From the IMG/VR virus record IMGVR_UViG_3300025383_000943, positions 1-28,513 of that record: a stretch of DNA of 28,513 bases. One strand, given 5' to 3'. Positions within the stretch are counted from its first letter, which is position 1. Every line of letters begins with the position of its first letter. Shown piece after piece: positions 2,888 through 15,083 of the stretch. A program made the translations under genes and the position numbers. This DNA is from a virus. The notes under the pieces are model-generated. The model had not been told where the DNA came from. It did not search any database and saw only the letters and a program-made list of their open reading frames with translations.

Positions 2888-2916
2888 ATTATACGATATT
2901 AGTGAATTATTGTCAA
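2888..2916 (-). promoter_or_regulatory. Perfect consensus sigma-70 promoter
   Basis: On the minus strand it reads TTGACA, a 17-bp spacer, TATAAT. It drives the exported protein, methyltransferase and nuclease genes. The stop codon (TGA) of the 704-aa gene is inside the TTGACA, so promoter and upstream gene overlap. Confidence 0.88.
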
Positions 2917-5027
2917 ATATTACTGGCGTATTGTACGGCCGCCGGAGCACGGCGTGCTGCTTGGATGTCCGCTTGGGCAGGACGTTCAAATTTGTGTGTC
3001 CAAGATTTGCTGGCCAAGTCTGCACTGGGGAAACGTTTGGCTCTATAGTTAGCACCGTCGGGTTCGGTTAGTGCAAAGTCAATTTGTCCCTGCCAATTTT
3101 GTTTCCAATTTGGTCCCAATGCTTGTTTGAGTTTGGTTAAGCGTGGGCCGTTGTGACTGAACAATCCGCCTGCTGGCAGCCCATTGCTGTCCATATGTTC
3201 GTCATTGGCAAAAAAGCGTGATTCAACTTTTATGTTGGCCAACATACCAGCAATTTGTTCTTTGCTCATACGCCATTTGGTTCTGCAATACTGATAAATG
3301 TCTTGCCAAGGCACTGAGCCAGGTGCTTGTGGTATTTGTACTTTTGGTTTAGCAGCTGCACGGTACTGTGCAACCTTGGCCTGTGCAGGTGATCCTTTGG
3401 GTATCATCTTGGGATCCAATTTGCCGGTGGCAATTTTACTGATATCATCTTCGAATTCGATAGCCGAAGCAAATTCTTCTGCAGAACTAGTAGGTGCTGC
3501 TTTTGCAGTTTGTACTGGCTCTGGACCAGTGTCAGGCACTGCCACTTGTTGGCCAGGAGTTAATCGAGTATCCTTGTTCATATGATTGAGTTTGAATAGC
3601 TCTTGCGGTGTTGTGCCGTTTTGTCTTGCAATACTGTAAACAGTATCTCCAGGTTCTACTACTTGTTTTGCAATAGATGATTTAGCCAACGCACTACCTC
3701 CAGCTCCTGCCAGTGCAGCTCCGCCTAGCCCTCTTAAAAAACCTCGGCGACTAATGGCTTCATTGATATTTTTATTCAATGTATCTAGTTCGTGTTCGCC
3801 CGACGGAGTTAAGAACCAAAACCCGTCTCCGGGAGTAACAATTAATCCTGCAGATTCTAAACTATCATATACTCGTTGTTGTGCATCAGTTATGCCACGT
3901 ATATCTTGTTGGAAATCTAGTCTGTGATCGTTGGCAGTTTCTATGGCCTTTAACAATAACAATTTGCCGTAGCCTTGTCCAAGAAAACGACTTTCAACTT
4001 CGACTTCATTGTTAACATCATCAGATTCAGCACTTCGAACAAAACTAAACTGTCCTACATTTTTACCGTGTACTGTTAATTTAATTTGAAAACTGGTTTT
4101 GAAATTGTCTGGAGTGTGCACATCAAATTTAATTGGGCTTTCTGCATCTTCTTTGAAGAAGTCAGTAGCTTCCCATTTTTGTACTAAAAAGTTTTTTAGC
4201 TCAACGGTATTCTTTAGGCCCTTGATTCGCATAAACTGATTGATCTTGACTGCACTGTCATAGTCACTGCTGCCGGGTTTACGAGCATTGCTCATATCTA
4301 CACCTAATCCATCGTCCTCGTTAGGATGTCTACTACCATAAATCAACAAGTTTTGCACACGTTTCTTGGCACCGGCAGTGAGTTCGCTTTTGTTCTTCTT
4401 AAATATCATTTCTAATATTTCTTCTAAAAAGTTACGACTGCGATAACTTCTGGGACTAGGACGCGGTCCACGTAATACTGCGGCTGCTTGTTTAACGCCA
4501 ACTGCACGACGTGTATCTTGTAGTCGCCAAGCAGTTTCGTCCATATATAAAAAAGTAGGTATGCCACGTTGCTTTGCAGTTATCAACATTTCACGTGTAG
4601 CAGGACTACGAACTTCTGACTGTTCTTTCATCAGTATGTGTATTTCTCTTACTCCACCAATTGGTATGGTGTTGTCTCGACTGAACACACGATCTTCGCT
4701 TTCTCTAGTACGACCCGGACTATGTATCCAACTGCGTTCCCAATAGTCAATAGGTTTAACAGGATAACGTTGTGCAAACCAATCACCATCTAACACAAAC
4801 ATAGCAGCACCAGATCCTACAAATCTGTGATAGTCTCCAACTTTACTGCGTGTTGTGCTTAAAAAATATTGATAGCCCTTGGGAGCGTATCCGGCTTCAC
4901 TGGGATTTCCAGTGGTACTGCTTAACTTGAACACACCGTCACGAAGTATATCACGTGCAGCAGTTATACCTGCATAGTGGAATAATATGGGCGTTGCACC
5001 TTCAGCGAGGAATTCTGTTGCTCTCAT
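2913..5027 (-). CDS. Multidomain leader-tagged protein: ART-like + GNAT + internal Tat signal + LysM + lysozyme
   Basis: The 704-aa product has at least five parts. Residues 1-10 (MRATEFLAEG) resemble the T4 internal-protein capsid-targeting leader, with an L-A-E|G prohead-protease-like site. Residues 14-135 look like an ADP-ribosyltransferase fold: F-H17-Y18, YFLSTTR (54-60) and the E-rich R-E-S-E-D-R (108-113). Residues 300-405 look like a GNAT acetyltransferase, with R-F-L-G-Q-G-Y-G at 347-354. Residues 426-448 (SRRGFLRGL then a hydrophobic Ala/Gly stretch) form a typical twin-arginine signal, oddly internal and just after I-N-E|A (421-424). Then come LysM (456-498) and a phage lysozyme-like domain (572-690, candidate catalytic E602 in NIKVESRF). 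The start overlaps the previous stop (TAATG). Domain calls are from motif recognition; the ART and lysozyme activities are not proven. Confidence 0.75.
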   Translation of the reverse strand: MRATEFLAEGATPILFHYAGITAARDILRDGVFKLSSTTGNPSEAGYAPKGYQYFLSTTRSKVGDYHRFVGSGAAMFVLDGDWFAQRYPVKPIDYWERSWIHSPGRTRESEDRVFSRDNTIPIGGVREIHILMKEQSEVRSPATREMLITAKQRGIPTFLYMDETAWRLQDTRRAVGVKQAAAVLRGPRPSPRSYRSRNFLEEILEMIFKKNKSELTAGAKKRVQNLLIYGSRHPNEDDGLGVDMSNARKPGSSDYDSAVKINQFMRIKGLKNTVELKNFLVQKWEATDFFKEDAESPIKFDVHTPDNFKTSFQIKLTVHGKNVGQFSFVRSAESDDVNNEVEVESRFLGQGYGKLLLLKAIETANDHRLDFQQDIRGITDAQQRVYDSLESAGLIVTPGDGFWFLTPSGEHELDTLNKNINEAISRRGFLRGLGGAALAGAGGSALAKSSIAKQVVEPGDTVYSIARQNGTTPQELFKLNHMNKDTRLTPGQQVAVPDTGPEPVQTAKAAPTSSAEEFASAIEFEDDISKIATGKLDPKMIPKGSPAQAKVAQYRAAAKPKVQIPQAPGSVPWQDIYQYCRTKWRMSKEQIAGMLANIKVESRFFANDEHMDSNGLPAGGLFSHNGPRLTKLKQALGPNWKQNWQGQIDFALTEPDGANYRAKRFPSADLASKSWTHKFERPAQADIQAARRAPAAVQYASNI
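4999..5027 (-). repeat. 29-bp identical leader-coding repeat, copy 1
   Basis: These 29 bases encode MRATEFLAE plus the first two bases of the next Gly codon of the 704-aa protein. They are identical to 5652-5680 in the previous gene. Conservation of every wobble base suggests recent copying or recombination of the leader between genes. Confidence 0.95.
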
Positions 5028-5680
5028 TATGTATATATCAAACTATCTATTCTTTTGTAGCGGATGTTAAATGCGTTCATCAATAATTCTACTTCACGCA
5101 AACATTGATCTCTTGCCCCGCCAACTAAGTAAGCACCGCTAAATCTTTTTAGTTGTGCTACACTGGTCCAGTTAACACTAATAGGTTCATCGTTCATTTC
5201 TTGCATAACACCCATGATCAAACTTTGTTGTGGTGTGCGTCTGTTAGATGCAGGAAATTGCAATTCTCTACTGTCTGATTTCTTTTGTGCGTATAGTTCA
5301 CGTATAGTGGCAATAATAGTTGCAGGCTCTATTCCCGAATCCATCCAGCTTCTTAAATAGCCGTAGCCTTTGTCTACTATTTCAAAACGATTCCAGTTTA
5401 TAGGGCCGGCATAATTGGGATTATTATCATATTCATCATCATCAAATCCCACTGTTTCTTCCCAATAAGTTTGTATATCATTGATAGTATCGCCAGTGAG
5501 TCCTTGATCTTCTGCATTAACAAACATCAGTACCGGGCCAGTTTGTTGATTTACAAAATTAATAATTTCTGTGAATACAGAGTTTTCATCCCCGTCCATC
5601 ATACCTGAATATTCAGGTTGCACATCCACCACTATAACAGGGTGTGCTCGGCCTTCAGCGAGGAATTCTGTTGCTCTCAT
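5027..5680 (-). CDS. Leader-tagged isochorismatase-fold (cysteine hydrolase-like) protein
   Basis: The 217-aa protein starts with the same MRATEFLAEG leader as the next gene. After it comes an isochorismatase-like core: VIVVDVQPEY (D19 on the first strand), a lysine in VDKGYGYLR (K104), and GGARDQCLREVE with C193. D-K-C is the catalytic triad of cysteine hydrolases such as isochorismatase and nicotinamidase. About 60 acidic residues (78-100) are inserted in the middle. The substrate is unknown; nicotinamide-type substrates would be interesting beside an ADP-ribosyltransferase-like protein, but that is speculation. The start overlaps the stop of the amidoligase gene by ATGA, indicating translational coupling. 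Confidence 0.7.
   Translation of the reverse strand: MRATEFLAEGRAHPVIVVDVQPEYSGMMDGDENSVFTEIINFVNQQTGPVLMFVNAEDQGLTGDTINDIQTYWEETVGFDDDEYDNNPNYAGPINWNRFEIVDKGYGYLRSWMDSGIEPATIIATIRELYAQKKSDSRELQFPASNRRTPQQSLIMGVMQEMNDEPISVNWTSVAQLKRFSGAYLVGGARDQCLREVELLMNAFNIRYKRIDSLIYT
5652..5680 (-). repeat. 29-bp identical leader-coding repeat, copy 2
   Basis: This copy encodes MRATEFLAE plus two bases at the start of the isochorismatase-fold gene and is identical to 4999-5027. The codons after it diverge at once, so only the leader is shared. Confidence 0.95.
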
Positions 5681-7620
5681 TTTTTATTTTTATATAAGGT
5701 TCGCAACACATCTTTGATTAATGATTGTACAACAGGATCGGTAGGTGGCATCAGTGTCTTAGTGACCACACAATAGCCTATATCGTCCCAGTCTTTGTTT
5801 TCTACAGTTTCCAACCCGTCGCTTGGGGCAACTTGACTTATACGAGCCAACGCAGCACCGATCATAGGAGATACTTGATAAGTTTTGAATCTGTCCAGTG
5901 AGTCTACACGTTGTATTTGATTCTTTATAATTGTTCTACTTGCTTTAGCTGTTAATTCTTGCTTGACTGCAGCACCACTGGCTATTTCTTTTATATTAAT
6001 ACCGCCTACTAATCCAGCTGGATTATCGCTTAAATAATTCTTAATAACAGTTTCAGGTTTACGGCCCTTAAAACTCATTACACTAATAGTCAATACTGGT
6101 GCACCTTTGGTTCGCAAATAATTTACCAATGCGTTGGAATCAGCTGGAGTTTCTTTTTGACTACCTTGTGCTAACTTTGCCAATTTGGTCTTATATTCTT
6201 GCACATAAGCAGTGGGATCGCTGGCAATAATCATTGCACGTACAAATCTACCTACTACATTGGTAACACCTTTAAGATCTGCAAGATAGTTACCGCCTGC
6301 GTGGCGGAAACTGATGTACTTACCGTTGTAACTGATGCTGGCAGTATGAGCACCGGATACCGAATTGGCGATTGCATTCAATGCTTTAACATCAATTTTT
6401 GTAGTTTGTGCTGGACGACCGAACACATCCTTTTTGGTTTTCTTAACATCTACATCAGTTGACGGATTTGTTATTCCGGACAAACTCTTAAAAACACTGT
6501 TAGCATACCTATTGTTTTCGCGGCCAAAATATCTCAATACATACTCGTCACCTAAAAATACAGCCAATTTCAAAACATCTAATTTTTGTGGAATACTGAC
6601 ATTGATGTGTAGTCCAGTTGAATCATTTGTGTATAGGTTTAATTTTGAAGCAAGAGCATAGAATTTATTCAAAGCAGACATAGCATCTAATGCTGGCAGT
6701 GGAGGACTAACGATCTCAGCTGTTGAATCAGCTTCCTCGTCGGGATCTAGACTACCATCAGGTTCAATGTACCAGTCAGTGAGATTTTTCTTTGCCTGGT
6801 GATAATTTTGAAATACATTTACTTTTGATCCCATTGTGCTAGCAAGTGCAGGTTGTAGTACTCGTGCACCTTCTTGATAGTCGTCGTCTTCGTCATAGTC
6901 TTCGTCGTCGGAGGAATAATCGTCTAATTGCAAAGTGTCCCATACTATAGTTGGATCAAAGTTAAATTGCTTGCTAAATTCATAACCTATATTATTGTTG
7001 CCGGTTAACCATTGTAAAAATCCTGACCATACTTTGCTGTTGCCTGCAATTTGTCGAAGTTGGGATCCTAGTGTTTCAAGTTCGTTGTTATTGTTTTTTA
7101 TATATAACAAATAGCCAAACATTTTTGCAAATTCGAGTTGATCTGACAATTTTTTACTATCAAAACTAAAGCTACGATTGTTCTCGCGAATTCTATCCAC
7201 GGCCATATCTGAATATTTTTTACGTTGCTTAGGTGTAAGTTTATTGTATAATTCAATTATTCTAGGTAAAATACTTTCTGTATACGCAGGATATGCTTCT
7301 TCAGCAGTATTGAATCCCCTATAAGGCTTCTTAAACTTAAATATCCGATCAAACCATTCGGGACTGCGAGTAGCGCCGATGTTTACTTCCCAATAATCCG
7401 AGTCAGCAAATACTTCGTCAACCTCATCCACTGTTTTAGGAGCTTTTTCTGAGGGTTCTGCATTGGCTGCAGTACCTTTAATGGTTGCTTCAGGAATACA
7501 TACTTCAAATTCGAATCCAACTAATACACCGGCAGTATGCCCTTGCTCTACTGCTTGAGCAAAGGAAGTTGGGTCCATACGGACTTCGTCTACTTCTTGG
7601 CTAAATTCATTTAATCTCAT
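5677..7620 (-). CDS. Leader-tagged amidoligase-like (COOH-NH2 ligase fold) protein
   Basis: The 647-aa protein starts MRLNEFSQEVDE and then shows amidoligase-family features: GFEFEV (35-40), D-G-S (288-290) with E-I-V-S-P-P (302-307), and TGLHINVS (335-342). A later F-R-x-x-G-G-N-Y-L segment matches the paralogue upstream. Members of this glutamine-synthetase-like superfamily ligate amines to carboxylates using ATP, and many probably modify peptides or cell-wall components. A long acidic stretch (232-250) interrupts the domain. No Shine-Dalgarno sequence is evident before the ATG at 7620; the gene may be translated by coupling, 21 bases after the paralogue's stop. The leader suggests packaging in the capsid. 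The substrate is unknown. Confidence 0.7.
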   Translation of the reverse strand: MRLNEFSQEVDEVRMDPTSFAQAVEQGHTAGVLVGFEFEVCIPEATIKGTAANAEPSEKAPKTVDEVDEVFADSDYWEVNIGATRSPEWFDRIFKFKKPYRGFNTAEEAYPAYTESILPRIIELYNKLTPKQRKKYSDMAVDRIRENNRSFSFDSKKLSDQLEFAKMFGYLLYIKNNNNELETLGSQLRQIAGNSKVWSGFLQWLTGNNNIGYEFSKQFNFDPTIVWDTLQLDDYSSDDEDYDEDDDYQEGARVLQPALASTMGSKVNVFQNYHQAKKNLTDWYIEPDGSLDPDEEADSTAEIVSPPLPALDAMSALNKFYALASKLNLYTNDSTGLHINVSIPQKLDVLKLAVFLGDEYVLRYFGRENNRYANSVFKSLSGITNPSTDVDVKKTKKDVFGRPAQTTKIDVKALNAIANSVSGAHTASISYNGKYISFRHAGGNYLADLKGVTNVVGRFVRAMIIASDPTAYVQEYKTKLAKLAQGSQKETPADSNALVNYLRTKGAPVLTISVMSFKGRKPETVIKNYLSDNPAGLVGGINIKEIASGAAVKQELTAKASRTIIKNQIQRVDSLDRFKTYQVSPMIGAALARISQVAPSDGLETVENKDWDDIGYCVVTKTLMPPTDPVVQSLIKDVLRTLYKNKK

Positions 7621-7641
7621 AATATTACTTATCTATTATAA

Positions 7642-10113
7642 CTATGTCATTACCGGAACAACATTGAGTCCAGTGTGTGCATATTGCGGATTTTGTCTTA
7701 TCCAATCTCTGGCAACATTGTTGGCATCTGATTGCACATTGCCCACACCATTGAAACGATGCAGTTCAACACCATCACTGTTGATGATTTTCCACCAGCC
7801 GGTGAAGTTTCCTCCCCCAGCAGGTTGTCGAGTATTTGTATTGGTTGCTCGCTCAAGATTGTATTCTGCACCAGGATTTTCTTGTTGATATCGAGCTAAT
7901 CTAGCTATGGCTTCTTGATCTGTATCAGCCACGAATGTAGCTACAACAGAGGATGAGTCCATACCTCTGAAAATATTATATTGCCGACCAAAATTAACTG
8001 TTTGTTGTGTTGGAGTCTCTGTTGCTCTGTGTTCCAATCTATAAATGTCTGGATCTGTTACACCATTGGCATTGCACCATGACCATTTGATACTCTCTGC
8101 ATCATTTCTAGTTTCAGCATGGAATCTATATACCACTTCCCTATCTCTTGGACTCAGCACAACCCAGTTGCCACGGGGATCGCTAGGTGGCAGCGGTCTG
8201 GGAGAAGTAGTGCCTCTTACAGGTGCATTGTTCATGTTGACACCTGCTTGCCGATTACTGGGGTTGGCAAACAAATCAGCGGTTCGTAGGCCAGGATCAC
8301 TACGTCTAACCATCTCTCCAGCAATGTACGCACTGGGGGCCATTACATATCTAACAAAGTCAGGGTCGACTTCAGGACGCAAGGTAACCGCCCATTCAAT
8401 AGGTTTGGCCAGGTCATTGTAAGCATGTCGACCAAGGTTAGTCACTTCTGCAGATTTGATATAGTCAGGAGTTACTCCCCACTCTTTAGCTGCCAATGCC
8501 AGTGCTTCCTGTTCAGTACCAGCAACAACTTCTGCAGATTTATTAAGATGATCAACTCGCCACCAGAACTGCTCGCCTTGGCGTTTGATCTTGCGTTCTA
8601 GCTGAGCTTGTTTGACAAAACTGCGTAGAGCGGCTTTGGGCAGTTCTCCTGCCACATATCGGGCAAAATATTCAATGGTGCTTTTTTCGCCTGACGGTGC
8701 CAACAGTTTGTACAACTTTTTCAAATACTCTTGACGGAACTTTTCTGGATTGGTTGCGGCGTCAAGAGCAACAACAAAACGCAACATAGTATTTTCAATC
8801 TTGTTCTTGCCAGACTCAAGCTCTTTGAGCCAATCACCGCCGGGACTACGAAACTCTACATAACCATCTTTGACATTGGCACTGGTGTACTTGCTGGTTG
8901 ACATTACCCCTAATGCCTTACTGGCCAAATCGTTAAGATGACCTTTCATTTGGTTTAACAAGGGCTCAGCCAGACCAGTGTTGGTTTTTATTCTTCTCTG
9001 AACATTTTCCAATCCAGATGCACAATAGTTATTGCCAGCACGACCAAATTCATCCAACACATATTGGTCGCCCATTAATAACACTAGTTTAACATAGTCT
9101 AGTGTTCCACCTTTGCCGGTATCACTTGGCCCCCAACCAGGTACACTGACATTCATATGTAGGCCGGTACTCTCATTGGTATAACAGCCAGTTTCTTTCA
9201 TCCAGGTTTGAATCTTTTTCAAATCTGTAAATAATTCTTCTATAGGCATTGCAGGACTAACAAACTCTAATCCTGCATCAGCTGAATCATCGGGCTCACT
9301 TAAACTACCATCTGTTTCGACTATATAGAACTGATTGTTAGCATCGGGACGTTTTTTTACACTGTGATAACTGCCGCCGGCCTTGCAAGGTTTCCCCACT
9401 GCTTGACCGAATGCTTCAGCAACTTCTTCGATAGTAACAGTGCCACCTGAGTCAGGTTGAGTCCAGTAAGGCCAAGAGATGTCGCCGTCACCGTAGTATC
9501 TCATGGCATCATCCATATCACGGACACCTTCTTCACTTAACCAATCTTCATCGCTAAAATCATTTTCGTGTTCTTCACGGAATTCTTCATAGGCATTGTG
9601 TTTGCTATCGTCGTCTTCGCCCCAAAGATAGTTAGCATAGTCCAAGATGTCCTGCTTGCCAGGAGTGTAATCATCATCGAGATCTTTGCCAGCAACTTTG
9701 CCTAGCCACTCTTTGATGTCTACTTCGTCGATATTGTTAGCCACCCACGTGACATAAAATTCAAATCCATCCTCGTCCCATAATTCAGAGACCTTGTTGT
9801 CACGCCACTCAAAGTACGCTTCTTCCATCCTTGACTGGAACTCTTGTATTTGTCTGCGACCATTATAATCGCCATCGTGGAAAAAGTCCGCAATTTGTTG
9901 TATGTCGTAAGCTGACTCGTTGTATTCGTAGTCAGGTTCTTGCTCAAAATAGTCGTCGGAATCTCTTTCTGTGTCAGGCACATACATCTCAAATTCCATA
10001 CCTGCACGGGCATCTATTTTAGAAGCCATGGCACGTAAGCTGCTGGGACTCATTGCAATTTCGTCTAATTGCTCGTCTTCTTTTATTAGTTTTTTAACTT
10101 CTTTAATGCGCAT
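7642..10113 (-). CDS. Leader-tagged amidoligase-like protein with four C-terminal repeats
   Basis: I start this 823-aa protein at ATG 10111-10113 (MRIKEVKKLIKEDEQLDE). A longer frame from 10221 would run through a terminator and into the nuclease gene. Amidoligase features: GMEFEM (38-43), D-G-S (268-270), E-F-V-S-P (283-287), STGLHMNVS (315-323) and V-E-F-R-S-P-G-G-D-W-L (419-429). The order is the same as in the 647-aa paralogue. The C-terminus holds four diverged repeats of about 45-55 residues (about 517-560, 649-698, 711-757, 772-823), each W/Y-x-I/V, then a hydrophobic strand and an Ala-rich helix. These may bind a partner or surface. The leader offers I-K-E and L-D-E sites for a prohead-type protease. 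There is no Shine-Dalgarno sequence; CTAAATAC lies 3 nt before the ATG. Confidence 0.7.
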   Translation of the reverse strand: MRIKEVKKLIKEDEQLDEIAMSPSSLRAMASKIDARAGMEFEMYVPDTERDSDDYFEQEPDYEYNESAYDIQQIADFFHDGDYNGRRQIQEFQSRMEEAYFEWRDNKVSELWDEDGFEFYVTWVANNIDEVDIKEWLGKVAGKDLDDDYTPGKQDILDYANYLWGEDDDSKHNAYEEFREEHENDFSDEDWLSEEGVRDMDDAMRYYGDGDISWPYWTQPDSGGTVTIEEVAEAFGQAVGKPCKAGGSYHSVKKRPDANNQFYIVETDGSLSEPDDSADAGLEFVSPAMPIEELFTDLKKIQTWMKETGCYTNESTGLHMNVSVPGWGPSDTGKGGTLDYVKLVLLMGDQYVLDEFGRAGNNYCASGLENVQRRIKTNTGLAEPLLNQMKGHLNDLASKALGVMSTSKYTSANVKDGYVEFRSPGGDWLKELESGKNKIENTMLRFVVALDAATNPEKFRQEYLKKLYKLLAPSGEKSTIEYFARYVAGELPKAALRSFVKQAQLERKIKRQGEQFWWRVDHLNKSAEVVAGTEQEALALAAKEWGVTPDYIKSAEVTNLGRHAYNDLAKPIEWAVTLRPEVDPDFVRYVMAPSAYIAGEMVRRSDPGLRTADLFANPSNRQAGVNMNNAPVRGTTSPRPLPPSDPRGNWVVLSPRDREVVYRFHAETRNDAESIKWSWCNANGVTDPDIYRLEHRATETPTQQTVNFGRQYNIFRGMDSSSVVATFVADTDQEAIARLARYQQENPGAEYNLERATNTNTRQPAGGGNFTGWWKIINSDGVELHRFNGVGNVQSDANNVARDWIRQNPQYAHTGLNVVPVMT

Positions 10114-10177: not shown

Positions 10178-10999
10178 TTAATCGTCTGATGCACCGGCAC
10201 CGCATTTAGCACGTTTTGCATTGGTCAATTTACCAAAGTCTACGGGCCATTCTTTGCCTGGTTGTAGCTCTACTGCTCCTGCAGGGAAAGCATACTTAAC
10301 ACCACCTTGTTGCTCAATTTGTGCAATAGGAAGTCTGAATTTAGTTAAATCATTGCCCAAGTTAGGATATGGTGCAACGTGTGGGAACATCCAACCAGCG
10401 ATTTCTTTAGTTTGATTGTTGATAACGATCTTGTAAAAAGCGTGGGGAACAACTACACCTTTGCCAATGGTTTTGTCGCCAGCAGCATAAACGCCACCGC
10501 TAACAATGGTATAGCTTTGGTTTAATTGTACAGTCCATCCACGTACTGAAGTTTCTAATAACTTCCAAATACCACGATTGAGTGATCCAGCTTGTGGGCT
10601 CATATTGGTCATTAGGAATGATTCATACTCTACTTGTGGATCCCAGCTAAGGTCGCCATCTGGGGCCATATGTCCTTTGTCGTAGCCTGTTGCGGCATAG
10701 TCTTGTGGTGTAGCACCGCCTGGAACTGATTGATCAGCTGCAAAAGCGTTAGTACGTGCAACACAGCCCAATGCGTTAGGTGGTGTTAGTTCATACATAA
10801 CAAACTCTGGCAACTTAGCAGTTGCATCGTAGCCTACCAAATAGGCCTGACGGCAAATTGGCTGGATTGGTTTTGCTGATTCTGGAAATCCGTAAGGAGC
10901 GTGTACTTGACAAGCAGCCACAGGATTTGGAGCACGTTGTGTCCAAGCAAATGAGTTTACGGTGACAAGCACCAATAATAGTGCGAATAGTTTTTTCAT
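10178..10999 (-). CDS. Secreted DNA/RNA non-specific endonuclease (NucA/Serratia nuclease family)
   Basis: The 273-aa protein begins with a Sec signal peptide (MKKLFALLLVLVTVNSFAW, cleavage near residue 18). It carries the family active site D-K-G-H110-M-A-P (107-113). The metal-site region follows: N132 in M-T-N-M and N141-R-G-I-W with E149. This beta-beta-alpha-metal family cuts single- and double-stranded DNA and RNA. Export would place it in the periplasm or outside the cell, where it could destroy incoming DNA of competing phages or scavenge nucleotides; both roles are inference. AAGGG precedes the ATG. The gene lies 33 bases after the aldolase stop, probably as the last gene of that operon, and ends at a strong terminator. 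Confidence 0.88.
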   Translation of the reverse strand: MKKLFALLLVLVTVNSFAWTQRAPNPVAACQVHAPYGFPESAKPIQPICRQAYLVGYDATAKLPEFVMYELTPPNALGCVARTNAFAADQSVPGGATPQDYAATGYDKGHMAPDGDLSWDPQVEYESFLMTNMSPQAGSLNRGIWKLLETSVRGWTVQLNQSYTIVSGGVYAAGDKTIGKGVVVPHAFYKIVINNQTKEIAGWMFPHVAPYPNLGNDLTKFRLPIAQIEQQGGVKYAFPAGAVELQPGKEWPVDFGKLTNAKRAKCGAGASDD

Positions 11000-11032: not shown

Positions 11033-12010
11033 TTAGTATAGATTTGTGTAGTATAAATCTAAACAAGATTCTATGTTTTCCTGTACAGCTTTGATTACAT
11101 CGCATTCCAAGCTCAAACGTTCTTCAAGCTCGTTATACTCTGCAGAGTTAAACAAGTAATGTCCAGCTACTTTGACTCTAAGATCTGCATCTGCAGATTC
11201 AGTCCACTTGGTCCATTTACCACTGTCGATTACACGTTGGCGAAACTCTGAAGAATCTACATCGTGCTCTTGAGCCAGGCTCAATACAGTATTAGTTTGA
11301 ATAACACCCAACTGCGGTGCAATATTCAGTGCGTGTACACCTGCTGATCTACGTAGTGCAATTTCTTCCGCAGTCAAATAGTCTGCATTGTGTTCTTTAA
11401 GACCCACTCCTGCAACATCTGCATAATCAACCAACTTGAGTACAGTGTCGTATTCAAACGAACCTGCTTGACGATCTTCGTAGGTCAAACTGCCTGTTTG
11501 TGCTACCACAAATCGCATATTGGGGAAATGTTTGGCAAAGTCTACGTCGTCTTTGTATTTTTGTACTCCGGCAGCAACTCCTACATTTTCCTCGGTACCA
11601 AACTCAAATTGAATCTGCGGATTCACCATCAGTGCAAATTTGATTAATTCTTCTGCAGTGGCGTATCCGTTGCTACAACGACTGGTGTCAATGTGTATGA
11701 GATCAAATCCTGCTTCAATATCCGCAGCAATGGTTCTCTTGGTTGCTTTAACTGCATCACTTTCTGACAGCGATTTTTCACTGTCTAAAAAGTAAGGACC
11801 GCAGTGATCTCTGCACAACATAAGGTACGGACTACGCAGTGGTGCCAGTTGTTGAGCCAGCTCTGCAGTAGTCATAACATATCCGCTGGCAGCATCAACT
11901 TGGTTTCTGCTGGCAATAAACATCAATGGTCGTTGTTTATCTCTAGCATACTTGGCCAGTATGTCGTTAATTAATGGGCTCATTGGCCCAAATCCTAATT
12001 TGAATTCCAT
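11033..12010 (-). CDS. GatZ/KbaZ-like class II aldolase family protein
   Basis: From ATG 12008-12010 (MEFKLGFGPMS) the product has 325 aa; a longer frame to 12040 only deepens the overlap with the phosphatase gene. Segments match the tagatose-bisphosphate aldolase GatZ/KbaZ family in order: RPLMFIASRNQVD, L-C-R-D-H-C-G-P, AGFDLIHIDTS, F-G-T-E-E-N-V, V-V-A-Q-T-G, and L-K-E-H-N-A-D-Y. In E. coli these proteins are called non-catalytic subunits of a TIM-barrel aldolase. Here it ends a four-gene sugar cassette with a phosphatase, a nucleotidyltransferase-kinase and a cupin. It may make or split a phosphorylated keto-sugar precursor; the actual substrate cannot be read. Confidence 0.72.
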   Translation of the reverse strand: MEFKLGFGPMSPLINDILAKYARDKQRPLMFIASRNQVDAASGYVMTTAELAQQLAPLRSPYLMLCRDHCGPYFLDSEKSLSESDAVKATKRTIAADIEAGFDLIHIDTSRCSNGYATAEELIKFALMVNPQIQFEFGTEENVGVAAGVQKYKDDVDFAKHFPNMRFVVAQTGSLTYEDRQAGSFEYDTVLKLVDYADVAGVGLKEHNADYLTAEEIALRRSAGVHALNIAPQLGVIQTNTVLSLAQEHDVDSSEFRQRVIDSGKWTKWTESADADLRVKVAGHYLFNSAEYNELEERLSLECDVIKAVQENIESCLDLYYTNLY

Positions 12011-12462
12011 ATCTCTAATCTTTCTAGTATGTGCATACAAGCATCCATTACTGCGCCGTGTCCACCTGCACTAGGTGTAACAAAGTTAGCAGCTTTGCGT
12101 GCTTCTATTCTTGCTTGTGCGGGAGCTATTCCATAAAATACTGCGTTGAGTACTGCAGCATCGTAGTAACCGTCTCCCATGTATATAGTCTTTGAAAAAT
12201 CAAATCCTTTAACAAATTCAAATCTTGTTGCTTCGGGTACCAAGGTTAATTCAAATCCCATATGATCAACGATACGACTTTTGCTTATGTCCCAACCTGC
12301 ACGGTCAGCACTGATAAATTGTATGTTTAATTTATCTTTAAGCATCTTAAGGCCGTCGTGATCATAATTACCAAAGGCTTTGAAGGGTTTGCCTTCAACT
12401 CCCCAGTAGATAACACCGTCATTCAACACACCGTCTACGTCTAGTATAAAATTTTCAATCAT
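11995..12462 (-). CDS. KdsC-like HAD-family sugar phosphatase
   Basis: The 155-aa protein has the cap-less HAD layout of KDO-8-phosphate phosphatase KdsC: D8-V-D10-G-V-L-N-D, S51-A-D-R in motif II, a lysine near 85, and G-D97-G-Y-Y-D101 in motif IV. D8 would be the phospho-acceptor nucleophile and D10 the general acid. KdsC-like enzymes dephosphorylate 2-keto-3-deoxy sugar phosphates before nucleotide activation. The gene overlaps the upstream nucleotidyltransferase-kinase by ATGA and the downstream aldolase by 16 bases, so it is part of a coupled sugar pathway. Confidence 0.82.
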   Translation of the reverse strand: MIENFILDVDGVLNDGVIYWGVEGKPFKAFGNYDHDGLKMLKDKLNIQFISADRAGWDISKSRIVDHMGFELTLVPEATRFEFVKGFDFSKTIYMGDGYYDAAVLNAVFYGIAPAQARIEARKAANFVTPSAGGHGAVMDACMHILERLEIWNSN

Positions 12463-14006
12463 TTTAATACTCTGCTAAAATGCAATTGCGACAATGCCAC
12501 TAGAAATTTATCAAAAGGTGCTTCGTGCAATGGACTCATATTCAAGTAGATAATAGGCACCAAGGTTATTACTTTTTGCCAATCCAATCCTTGTTTAATT
12601 ACCCACGCTTTTAGTATTTCTTGGTAAACTTCAGCATTGTCAATGCTAGGTACAGAAATGGTACAACGGTCATTGACTTCTTCGTAGCCAATCAAATCTT
12701 GTTTAACTGCTTTATAACTGAGCCACAGGCCACCCAACATCTTGGCCAAGTCATAGTATAAATCACCGTAGATGTTGCCAGCAAAGTCTGTACGCCAATC
12801 AATAGCAGTAAACTGTTGTGTTGCAGCATCGTAAATGGTATTGTCAAAGTGTAGATCACCGTGGATAAATCGCCACTCGGTAGAAGTACACAACCATTTC
12901 CAATCAATCTTGCTCAAGTAAGTGTCAATGTTTTCCACAGGATATCCATTTACTTCTGTGCACTCACTCCAGTCACTGTACTTGATTCGCAATTGATCAA
13001 CTCGATCCATTGTTTTGTCATAGTAAAAATTACGGCAACTGCTGTAGATGTTTTTCTCGTCCAAGTCAAAAGGAGCGACCCATAATTTAGTTTCGCACCA
13101 ATCTAACATTGCACGGTAAACATTGGGTGTGTACTGATTGTAAACAATATCACCCACTGCATAGTCGTGTATTAAGAAGTTGCCCACAGCCTGTACATTA
13201 CCGGGCATACACTGACTGTTTTTGCCAGCACGTGCCCAACGACGAGTAGCGTGTTCTTCTTTGGTAAAGTATTTGACAATCTTGCCGTTGTCGTGATAAA
13301 ACAATTCGTCAGGCTTGGGAAAGCTGATCTCTGGAAGTTCTACGCTTAATTCCTGCCACTTTTCATAAGTGCCAAAGTCCAACCAGTTTTTAACTGTGTG
13401 TGCTTTAAGCTCTAGTCCAGGAAAACCTTCAAAAGTGTCTTTGGCACCAACACGTTGTAGATTGTTTAAGTATTCGTCATCCTTGGCATACATAAGTCCA
13501 ATGAATGCATCTACTGCTCTTGGGCTGGCAATTTTATTTTTAACATCCACAATATCGTCGCCATCTCTGGTGACCCAACAGTAGTCTTGACTGATAGTAC
13601 TGTCTACAGGATACACACCAATCCAGTTATGATCCATACGGCTGGTATAGTCAAAGTCAAATAGTGTGTCGCAGGCCAACCAAAGGAATCCACCTTTAAG
13701 GTGTTCTGCACAATGTTGAATTGTGGTTGCTGGTCCAGTGTTGCCTTCTGAATAGTCTGGAATGTCTACGAACACAATGTTCTTTTCACTGTGTACATTG
13801 CCCACATAGTCTTTGACCTGTTGCCCCATATGCCCACAACCAATTACAAATTTTGTATCTGTGGGAAACTTATCAATGATATGGCTGATAAGAGGTTTGT
13901 TGTCGTAGGGTATAAGACCTTTGTTAACCATTCTGCTGAACGGTCCCATTCTTCTTCCATACCCTGCACTTAATATTAATACTGTTAAGGGTTTATTTGT
14001 GTTCAC
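12459..14006 (-). CDS. Fusion of sugar nucleotidyltransferase and choline/aminoglycoside-kinase-like domain
   Basis: The 515-aa protein has two domains. Residues 7-225 form a nucleotidyltransferase: L-S-A-G-Y-G-R-R-M-G-P (12-22), N-K-G, and a metal-site aspartate in L-A-C-D-T (110-114). Residues about 235-515 form an APH/choline-kinase-like phosphotransferase: I-H-G-D-L-H-F-D-N (381-389) is the catalytic loop and I-D-W-R (402-405) the metal-binding motif, then G-D-L-Y-Y-D-L-A-K. The pairing recalls LicC plus LicA, which activate and phosphorylate choline, but sequence alone does not show whether the substrate is choline or a sugar. It likely phosphorylates and then nucleotide-activates one metabolite. 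It overlaps the cupin gene by 14 bases. Confidence 0.78.
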   Translation of the reverse strand: MNTNKPLTVLILSAGYGRRMGPFSRMVNKGLIPYDNKPLISHIIDKFPTDTKFVIGCGHMGQQVKDYVGNVHSEKNIVFVDIPDYSEGNTGPATTIQHCAEHLKGGFLWLACDTLFDFDYTSRMDHNWIGVYPVDSTISQDYCWVTRDGDDIVDVKNKIASPRAVDAFIGLMYAKDDEYLNNLQRVGAKDTFEGFPGLELKAHTVKNWLDFGTYEKWQELSVELPEISFPKPDELFYHDNGKIVKYFTKEEHATRRWARAGKNSQCMPGNVQAVGNFLIHDYAVGDIVYNQYTPNVYRAMLDWCETKLWVAPFDLDEKNIYSSCRNFYYDKTMDRVDQLRIKYSDWSECTEVNGYPVENIDTYLSKIDWKWLCTSTEWRFIHGDLHFDNTIYDAATQQFTAIDWRTDFAGNIYGDLYYDLAKMLGGLWLSYKAVKQDLIGYEEVNDRCTISVPSIDNAEVYQEILKAWVIKQGLDWQKVITLVPIIYLNMSPLHEAPFDKFLVALSQLHFSRVLK

Positions 14007-14489: not shown

Positions 14490-14497
14490 TATTTATC
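14490..14497 (-). promoter_or_regulatory. T4-like late promoter octamer before the sugar cassette
   Basis: GATAAATA on the minus strand, 24 bases before the ATG of the cupin gene and overlapping the clpP stop codon. It matches the NATAAATA form of T4-like late promoters. Expression as a late operon is inferred. Confidence 0.5.
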
Positions 14498-15083
14498 TAT
14501 GCTCAATGATGCTATCACATAATCCATAAGCCAATGCGTGGCGTGCGCTCATATAGTTGTCACGTTCCATATCAGCAGTTAGCTCATCAAATGTTTTACC
14601 CACACTATTGTGTTTAACATAGATGCTGGTCAAGTTACGCTTCATAACCATAATTTCTTCGACTTGGATCAACATATCTGTTGCTTGGCCACGAGCACCG
14701 CCCGAAGGTTGATGTATCATATGGCGTGCATTGGGCAACATCAATCGTTTACCGGCAGCTCCCGCTTGTGCTAGCAATGACCCCATACTGCAGGCCTGTC
14801 CCATAACAATTGTAGATACGTCGGGCTTAATGAACTGCATAGTATCGTAAATTGCCATACCAGCAGTAACAACACCACCAGGACTATTAATATAAAATAA
14901 AATATCCTCATCTGGATTTTCACTTTCCAAGTATAGCATTTGTGCTACAATAAGACTGGCACTGTGTTCATTTACATCTGTGTCCAGCATTACGATTCGT
15001 TCTCTAAGCAGTCGACTGTAGATATCGTAACTGCGTTCGCCATTGGCGGTTTTTTCTAAGACTATTGGTACTAAGTTTGGCAT
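14493..15083 (-). CDS. clpP: ATP-dependent Clp protease proteolytic subunit ClpP
   Basis: The 196-aa product aligns along its whole length with bacterial ClpP from the processed N-terminus (LVPIVLE at 4-10). The Ser-His-Asp triad is intact: S99 in G-Q-A-C-S-M, H124 in M-I-H-Q-P, and D175 in [11 protein letters not shown] (64-70) forms the oxyanion region. No long propeptide is present. ClpP needs an unfoldase (ClpA/ClpX), so the phage subunit probably uses or competes for host unfoldases, altering protein turnover; a role in prohead processing is also conceivable. AGGAGAA precedes the ATG, and a sigma-70 promoter lies at 15103-15131. Confidence 0.95.

Follow-up and report, generated by a model that had tools for sequence, protein, structure and literature searches.

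The question raised by this locus is why four adjacent genes for unrelated enzymes should begin alike. The genes, here called open reading frames (ORFs) 1 to 4, lie on the minus strand of a 28.5-kb virus fragment with 32 genes (IMG/VR record IMGVR_UViG_3300025383_000943, 28,513 nucleotides; this whole stretch is referred to as the window). A first-pass annotation had described four neighbouring leader-tagged genes and likened the leader to the capsid-targeting sequence of phage T4. All four ORFs and their leaders were found, and the likeness held for ORF1, ORF2 and their relatives, in which a short leader ending in [LI]-x-E precedes unrelated proteins. Very probably, these are T4-type capsid-targeting leaders processed by the head protease, in a system extended to polyproteins and possibly to the unmasking of twin-arginine (Tat) export signals. 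The leaders would draw each protein into the prohead core during assembly, where a gp21-type S77 protease would cut after [ILV]-x-E and free the mature enzymes; these would stay packaged and reach the next host together with the DNA. Sites for this protease would also part the modules of polyproteins, so that several enzymes could be delivered by one gene.

In phage T4, gp21 cleaves after L/I-x-E, and in the leader of internal protein IPIII positions 4 and 7 control targeting and positions 8 and 10 processing (PMC9026906). N-termini of the MRATEFLAEG type were observed twice among the 32 genes of the window, against 0.01 expected by chance. The leaders of ORF1 and ORF2 are a clear fit to an MRATEF-type consensus, with an aromatic residue (F6) before the cleavage triplet as in all MRATEF proteins; ORF4 has no such residue. 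MRATEFLAE has the same layout as the T4 leader, in which the aromatic residue is F7, minus one residue. The nearest candidate sites in the other two genes (a slash marks the predicted cut) are V-D-E/V, 12 residues into ORF3, and L-D-E/I, 18 residues into ORF4. An L-x-E before the start of the ORF4 module is kept in relatives (L155/L011, L283 and L118) and in an internal copy in L200. The longest open frame of ORF4 begins at 10221, upstream of the leader start; the true start is very likely 10113, because a relative with 81% identity in a 354-kb contig (L011) begins with the leader (MRFKEI).

A nucleotide-degenerate pattern for MRATEF-[NTN]-x-E was run over 2.9 million viral contigs and matched at least 119 stretches. 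The pattern carries built-in controls, with AGY admitting Ser at position 2 and TTY admitting Phe at position 7, the cleavage P3. Among the 124 matches listed, position 2 was Arg in 123, and position 7 was I in 81, L in 28, V in 14, M in one and F in none. The sole Ser match, preceded by 386 open codons, is apparently a chance match inside another gene. In the 81 non-redundant leader proteins among the matches listed, the only invariant columns were the leader residues fixed by the pattern, and the passengers included a DarT-like ADP-ribosyltransferase (ART), GNAT, NUDIX, superoxide dismutase, GH19, ParB_N, ASCH and ART-PolyVal. Counterparts of the leader on unrelated domains thus exist in related genomes. 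A search of whole records with the pattern was uninformative, since leaders are diverse in those genomes, and ORF-anchored counting was used instead: each of four contigs 300-370 kb long had the core motif at 3-5 gene starts, compared with 0.04-0.08 expected from internal positions. Leader genes also cluster, filling 10 of 44 same-strand neighbour slots versus 23 of 1671 genes overall. Cultured relatives of a 1466-residue polyprotein and of a 124-residue leader family were looked for and none was found.

The leader DNA of ORF1 and ORF2 (5001-5027 and 5654-5680) is identical over the first 29 nucleotides and differs in its flanks, as if the leader were a recombination unit. This identity, and a strong preference for AGA and GAA codons, could mark the conserved start as a mobile genetic element or a translation element that aids recombination or initiation, and not as a signal for protein sorting. 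Such an origin is extremely unlikely: across contigs the codons vary synonymously while the amino acids stay fixed, and the leaders of other phages differ yet keep the site (MKIDELYESMITE/S, MKNFSSFLTE/A). Moreover, [ILV]-x-E is kept internally, where there is neither initiation nor leader DNA, and a recombination or translation tag was rejected as the main function because these internal sites are kept.

The first-pass annotation did not include internal protease sites, polyproteins or the Tat signal of ORF1. Homologues of ORF2 were collected via the body of the protein, not the leader; in 19 of 19, E9 was invariant, as were D19, K104 and C193, which are presumed to be catalytic; the other leader residues vary. 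What precedes this domain is a free leader in some homologues and the linker of a polyprotein in others. The ORF2-type domain comes after EKGVAEGSLNE/GLAHPVIVVDVQ in a 977-residue protein (L268) and after KQSLDE/GRGTSVIVVDVQ in L277. ART modules have [LIF]-x-E at a fixed distance ahead of an HY motif, in free leader proteins as well as in polyproteins (L006, L008, L009 and L010), and INMSP, the amidoligase start, is found behind DLFE/ within a frame of 1248 residues (G006), at residue 868. Modules of ORF1, ORF2 and ORF4 accordingly recur inside giant polyproteins just behind [ILV]-x-E, and related polyproteins reach 1593 residues. Two closely similar proteins are of this length (L008:8153-12931 and L009:7676-12454); the former contains Pfam ParB_N, NUDIX and GH19 modules, and in the two loci the ART-type starts differ in position or occur twice.

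A test of module boundaries covered 3404 proteins. At N-side homology boundaries the position two places behind [ILV] was most often Glu (65 boundary groups, Gly next with 28), which was not so inside modules (16 and 12), giving an odds ratio of 3.3 (p=3.6e-7) in a partly biased sample. In 0.94 million residues, QGVAE was counted 70 times and GVAE 120 times, versus 10-22 for permuted or changed tetrapeptides. A QGVAEG linker recurs between modules across leader-phage loci (e.g. L268, L069, L201).

The presence of a suitable protease was assessed in the leader contigs. A gp21-type S77 protease was found in 11 of 11 that carry a gp23-type capsid gene; it was absent from all 12 tested contigs without gp23, as expected of fragments. 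Genuine loss of S77 in some leader contigs was considered and rejected, as the contigs concerned, including one of 262 kb (G010), also have no gp23. In seven leader genomes the probable end of the gp23 propeptide is marked in every case by L-x-E with S or N behind it (e.g. QLLAE/SSAG, MLAE/NASAG). The first-pass annotation had suggested looking for a gp21-type protease in the same genome: none was found in the window fragment, and one is present in its 354-kb relative (G001) besides the gp23-bearing leader contigs.

Among cultured phages, the ART homologues of T4-type Vibrio phages, in which S77 is present, start MKKFNEFANELAE/A. Those of Salmondvirus JA11, Lu11, HRDY3 and Sen-NF, which gave no S77 match, begin at the domain or close to it and have no site. 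[LI]xE leaders are carried by the ART homologues of the Vibrio and Alishewanella phages positive for S77 and by none of the four from phages that gave no S77 match. The start in Salicola phage SCTP-2, which has S77, is just a short MNLNESLSAT, and this case is not clear-cut. Alishewanella phage Slickus01, which also has S77, carries a different shared leader (e.g. MKIDELYESMITE/S) on ten genes, nine in a row, with several kinds of passenger; its leader genes at 86.6-93.3 and 96.9-97.4 kb fit M[KN][IF][DEN]xLYES..xE, and its gp23 reads ISE/STASG at the corresponding propeptide-end position.

Leader-bearing enzymes have been located in the virions of two related T4-like cyanophages, both with published virion proteomes. 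The virion proteome of S-CREM2 includes an S-adenosylmethionine hydrolase, an APH-like kinase, a cytidylyltransferase and several hypothetical proteins, and its authors state that co-purification was not excluded (PMC10665884). Five of the virion proteins start MKDFDSFLEE/F, (V)KRFDAFLTE/E, MKNFSSFLTE/A, MKDLHSFLTE/Q and MQTFSMFFSE/D. The pattern [MV][KRNQ]x[FYL]xxF[ILMF]xE, fixed after these N-termini were known, matches five of 215 S-CREM2 genes, all five virion-detected (Fisher p=2e-5); with a looser pattern five of nine were detected (p=0.002). The only enzyme found in the S-SZBM1 virion (PMC9146016), a cytidylyltransferase, starts MRFRQFIIE/A, which has nine residues like the window leader and falls outside the S-CREM2 pattern. 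The cytidylyltransferase family is also leader-tagged in L286 (MFLVELFED), beside an ORF2 homologue, with 33% identity to the S-CREM2 enzyme. A Cas9-like virion protein of S-CREM2 (L295:7704-10313) contains a leader-like RFASFMAE/A 17 residues in, and its annotated start may be too early.

Two other explanations were weighed. In T4, the core proteins undergo cleavage at this motif and are for the most part lost from the head (PMC9026906), so the leader-tagged proteins could be protease-cut scaffold or core filler, degraded and expelled at maturation like T4 gp67 and gp68, rather than effectors. This is very unlikely, as the passengers are folded, conserved enzymes and enzymes of such kind persist in mature S-CREM2 and S-SZBM1 virions. 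Alternatively, the leaders might target another part of the virion, such as the tail or baseplate, or be a general protease-cut assembly tag without injection; in L007 the genes for tail sheath and tube have a leader array nearby, and cell-wall hydrolases make up several of the passengers. We consider this unlikely, since the sites fit the prohead protease, which is active inside the head, and since cytoplasm-type enzymes dominate (ART, GNAT, NUDIX, nucleotidyltransferase, kinase), like the injected Alt and internal proteins of T4 (PMC9026906).

Capsid targeting with head-protease processing, the preferred reading, may have a further consequence in ORF1. A twin-arginine signal (SRRGFLRGLGGAALAGAGGSALA) was found at residue 427, immediately behind I-N-E/A. 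It has the form S/T-R-R-x-F-L-x plus a hydrophobic stretch, becomes N-terminal only if I-N-E is cut, and could hardly work while buried inside the protein. Tat signals also stand behind leader sites, as in MRATEFVTE/MDRRGFLRGLAG and MRAIEFINE/DMSRRGFLGALG, both with GH19, in MRASEIIAE/DLTRRGFLGAMG and, in window relative G001, in MFLHDILNE/DTRRDVLRKFG; inside the L268 polyprotein one follows VAEGSLSE/IDRRGFLKG. In leader-type proteins with a Tat signal, [ILV]-x-E lies a few residues from RR in 12-13 of 14 (L229 is the thirteenth, L236 is without), as compared to none of the Tat-like stretches in other viral contigs and 5 of 63 RR motifs without a hydrophobic stretch. The Pfam-matched passengers behind Tat signals are mostly cell-wall hydrolases. 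Judged by these arrangements, the head protease would unmask the signals, and in ORF1 and about a dozen related-phage proteins the cut would expose one, by which a peptidoglycan hydrolase could reach the periplasm after injection. The full proposal, in which the prohead protease splits effector polyproteins in the capsid and unmasks Tat, injected hydrolases are exported by the Tat system of the new host and sister modules act inside, is tentative and falls somewhat short of being probable. Control by capsid maturation over where injected enzymes go was not found described in a literature search limited to open-licence papers.

The passenger domains are listed with the leaders in Table 1. ORF1 unites several disparate effector domains in the order ART-GNAT-LysM-lysozyme. 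Its first domain was modelled with AlphaFold (AF2) from a 12-sequence alignment (pLDDT 80.6; a single-sequence fold of ORF1 reached only 36). Compared with Tpt1 (tRNA 2'-phosphotransferase) the model gave Z 11.4 and 2.5 A over 112 residues, and with DarT, the best Foldseek match, Z 9-10; root-mean-square deviations of the ART-fold matches ranged from 2.5 to 5 A over 112-148 residues. H17, R60, E109, E111 and R113 are invariant in the homologue sequences. A PDB profile search with the ART region gave chance-level matches (E 0.5-0.6). The model and structure searches support a DarT/Tpt1-like ART fold, in line with the ART-like passenger of the first-pass annotation. Its lysozyme was likewise recovered, LysM and Phage_lysozyme2 both scoring above the Pfam cut-offs, as did Amidoligase_2 in the two proteins assigned an amidoligase fold, ORF3 and ORF4. 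For the suggested GNAT passenger, stand-alone leader-tagged homologues exist (L264, L265 and L285), with a weak Pfam match. The isochorismatase fold assigned to ORF2 was confirmed by no Pfam or PDB profile (PDB matches at chance level, E 0.5-0.6); the invariant D19, K104 and C193 fit a probable cysteine hydrolase. No peptidase domain emerged from Pfam scans of the window proteins and of ten further, related proteins, some of them polyproteins.

Behind its amidoligase domain, ORF4 appears to end in several repeated units of about 50-60 residues (7642-8400, minus). Upstream it is adjoined by a DNA/RNA non-specific endonuclease with a Sec-type signal peptide (10178-10999, minus), which overlaps the longest ORF4 frame. 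Elsewhere the window encodes a ClpP-like protease (14493-15083) and a cluster which, judged by eye, resembles sugar-nucleotide or Kdo/sialic-type biosynthesis genes (11033-14006).

Table 1. Coordinates of the four leader-tagged genes of the window and of their predicted parts (slash, predicted cut).
Feature	Position	Strand	Basis or remark
ORF1	2913-5027	minus	starts MRATEFLAEG
ORF1 leader MRATEFLAE, predicted cut after E9 (L-A-E/G)	5001-5027	minus	residues 1-8 disordered, AlphaFold pLDDT<50
ORF1 module 1, ADP-ribosyltransferase fold (DarT/Tpt1-like) plus helical extension, residues 10-290	4158-5000	minus	structure model
ORF1 module 2, GNAT-like acetyltransferase, residues about 296-412	3792-4142	minus	homologues; weak Pfam
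ORF1 internal predicted prohead-protease site I421-N422-E423/A	3759-3767	minus	sequence; same placement in other Tat modules
ORF1 buried twin-arginine signal AISRRGFLRGLGGAALAGAGGSALA	3684-3758	minus	Pfam TAT_signal weak
ORF1 LysM domain	3534-3662	minus	Pfam 1.1e-11
ORF1 Phage_lysozyme2 domain	2922-3305	minus	Pfam 2.1e-13
ORF2	5027-5680	minus	starts MRATEFLAEG
ORF2 leader MRATEFLAE/G	5654-5680	minus	E9 invariant in 19/19 homologues
ORF2 body, probable cysteine hydrolase (isochorismatase-like)	5027-5653	minus	invariant D19, K104, C193
ORF3	5677-7620	minus	starts MRLNEFSQEV
ORF3 leader MRLNEFSQEVDE/V	7585-7620	minus	sequence; inferred site
ORF3 body, Amidoligase_2	5677-7584	minus	Pfam 9.3e-6, 26.1 bits vs cut-off 22
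ORF4	7642-10113	minus	starts MRIKEVKKLI
ORF4 leader MRIKEVKKLIKEDEQLDE/I	10060-10113	minus	L-x-E ahead of same module start in relatives
ORF4 body, Amidoligase_2, then repeat-like C-terminal units	7642-10059	minus	Pfam 2.5e-5, 24.7 bits vs cut-off 22

Several observations weigh against capsid targeting and head-protease processing. The leaders of ORF3 and ORF4 fit the consensus less well and have no [ILV] at the MRATEF-type P3, and the ART-GNAT junction of ORF1, F-K-E/D, is a poor site. The protease is known only from relatives, because the window carries no head genes. The boundary test is biased in that many loci were fetched by the leader; the ORF2 and ART series are largely unaffected. The virion evidence comes from two T4-like cyanophages and not from this phage or its near relatives; the S-CREM2 pattern was set retrospectively and, applied to S-SZBM1, gave no enrichment (one match, undetected in the virion). 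With these reservations we infer that the window's own proteins are packaged, cut and injected, and likewise any re-export by Tat and any effect of the enzymes on the host.

The closest known system is that of T4 IPI-III and Alt, which are cut by gp21. It shares with the window an N-terminal leader of about ten residues, an aromatic residue before the cut and the [LI]-x-E site, as well as unrelated passengers with only the leader in common and a cargo that includes an ART, and it shares the S77 protease with the gp23-bearing leader contigs (PMC9026906, PMC12373910); Alt, which is injected, is an ART (PMC9026906). In contrast to T4, the window leader has nine residues (MRATEFLAE), the cargo is far more varied and also occurs as polyproteins with internal sites, Tat signals stand behind sites, and the leader phages are environmental jumbo phages and not T-even phages. 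Polyvalent proteins (Iyer, Burroughs and Aravind 2017, PMC5512222) likewise combine unrelated activities (ART, GNAT, lysozyme, ParB, NUDIX) and are predicted to be injected with the DNA. Their processing was proposed to occur via embedded zincin peptidases, frequent though not obligatory, whereas the Pfam scans found no peptidase domain in the window proteins; here head-protease sites lie at the module borders and modules also occur as separate leader-tagged genes.

In the capsid localisation signal of P1 DarB, N-terminal residues also suffice to send a foreign protein into the head, but more than 9 and at most 30 are needed, and the head and protease are different (PMC9024508). The ejection proteins of SPN3US and phiKZ similarly lose N-terminal propeptides to the head protease, at AxE; unlike the window leaders, these propeptides are mostly longer than 100 residues, with no shared short leader and with A-x-E specificity in SPN3US (PMC10052503). 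S-CREM2 (PMC10665884) and S-SZBM1 (PMC9146016) also have virion enzymes, on which T4-type leaders were seen when the sequences were re-read here; their cargo is mostly single-domain, and the passages concerned mention neither leaders nor their cleavage. In an incomplete search of open-licence literature, no paper was found that describes leaders of this kind in jumbo phages or marine phages, or effector polyproteins cut by a prohead protease. The comparison suggests a combination of T4 capsid targeting and polyvalent proteins, by which bacteria would receive a large, modular cargo upon infection.

Little is known of the repertoire that phages inject, since packaged proteins are not distinguishable from other hypothetical genes. 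A readable tag with its cleavage site would allow the injected proteome of T4-type and jumbo phages to be predicted from sequence, including uncultured phages and modules in giant proteins, and the leader offers an explanation, from existing data, for the enzymes in cyanophage virions. If the wider proposal is true, one protease would serve capsid maturation, cargo release and cargo addressing, and if the Tat step is real, capsid maturation would control the destination of injected enzymes in the next cell.
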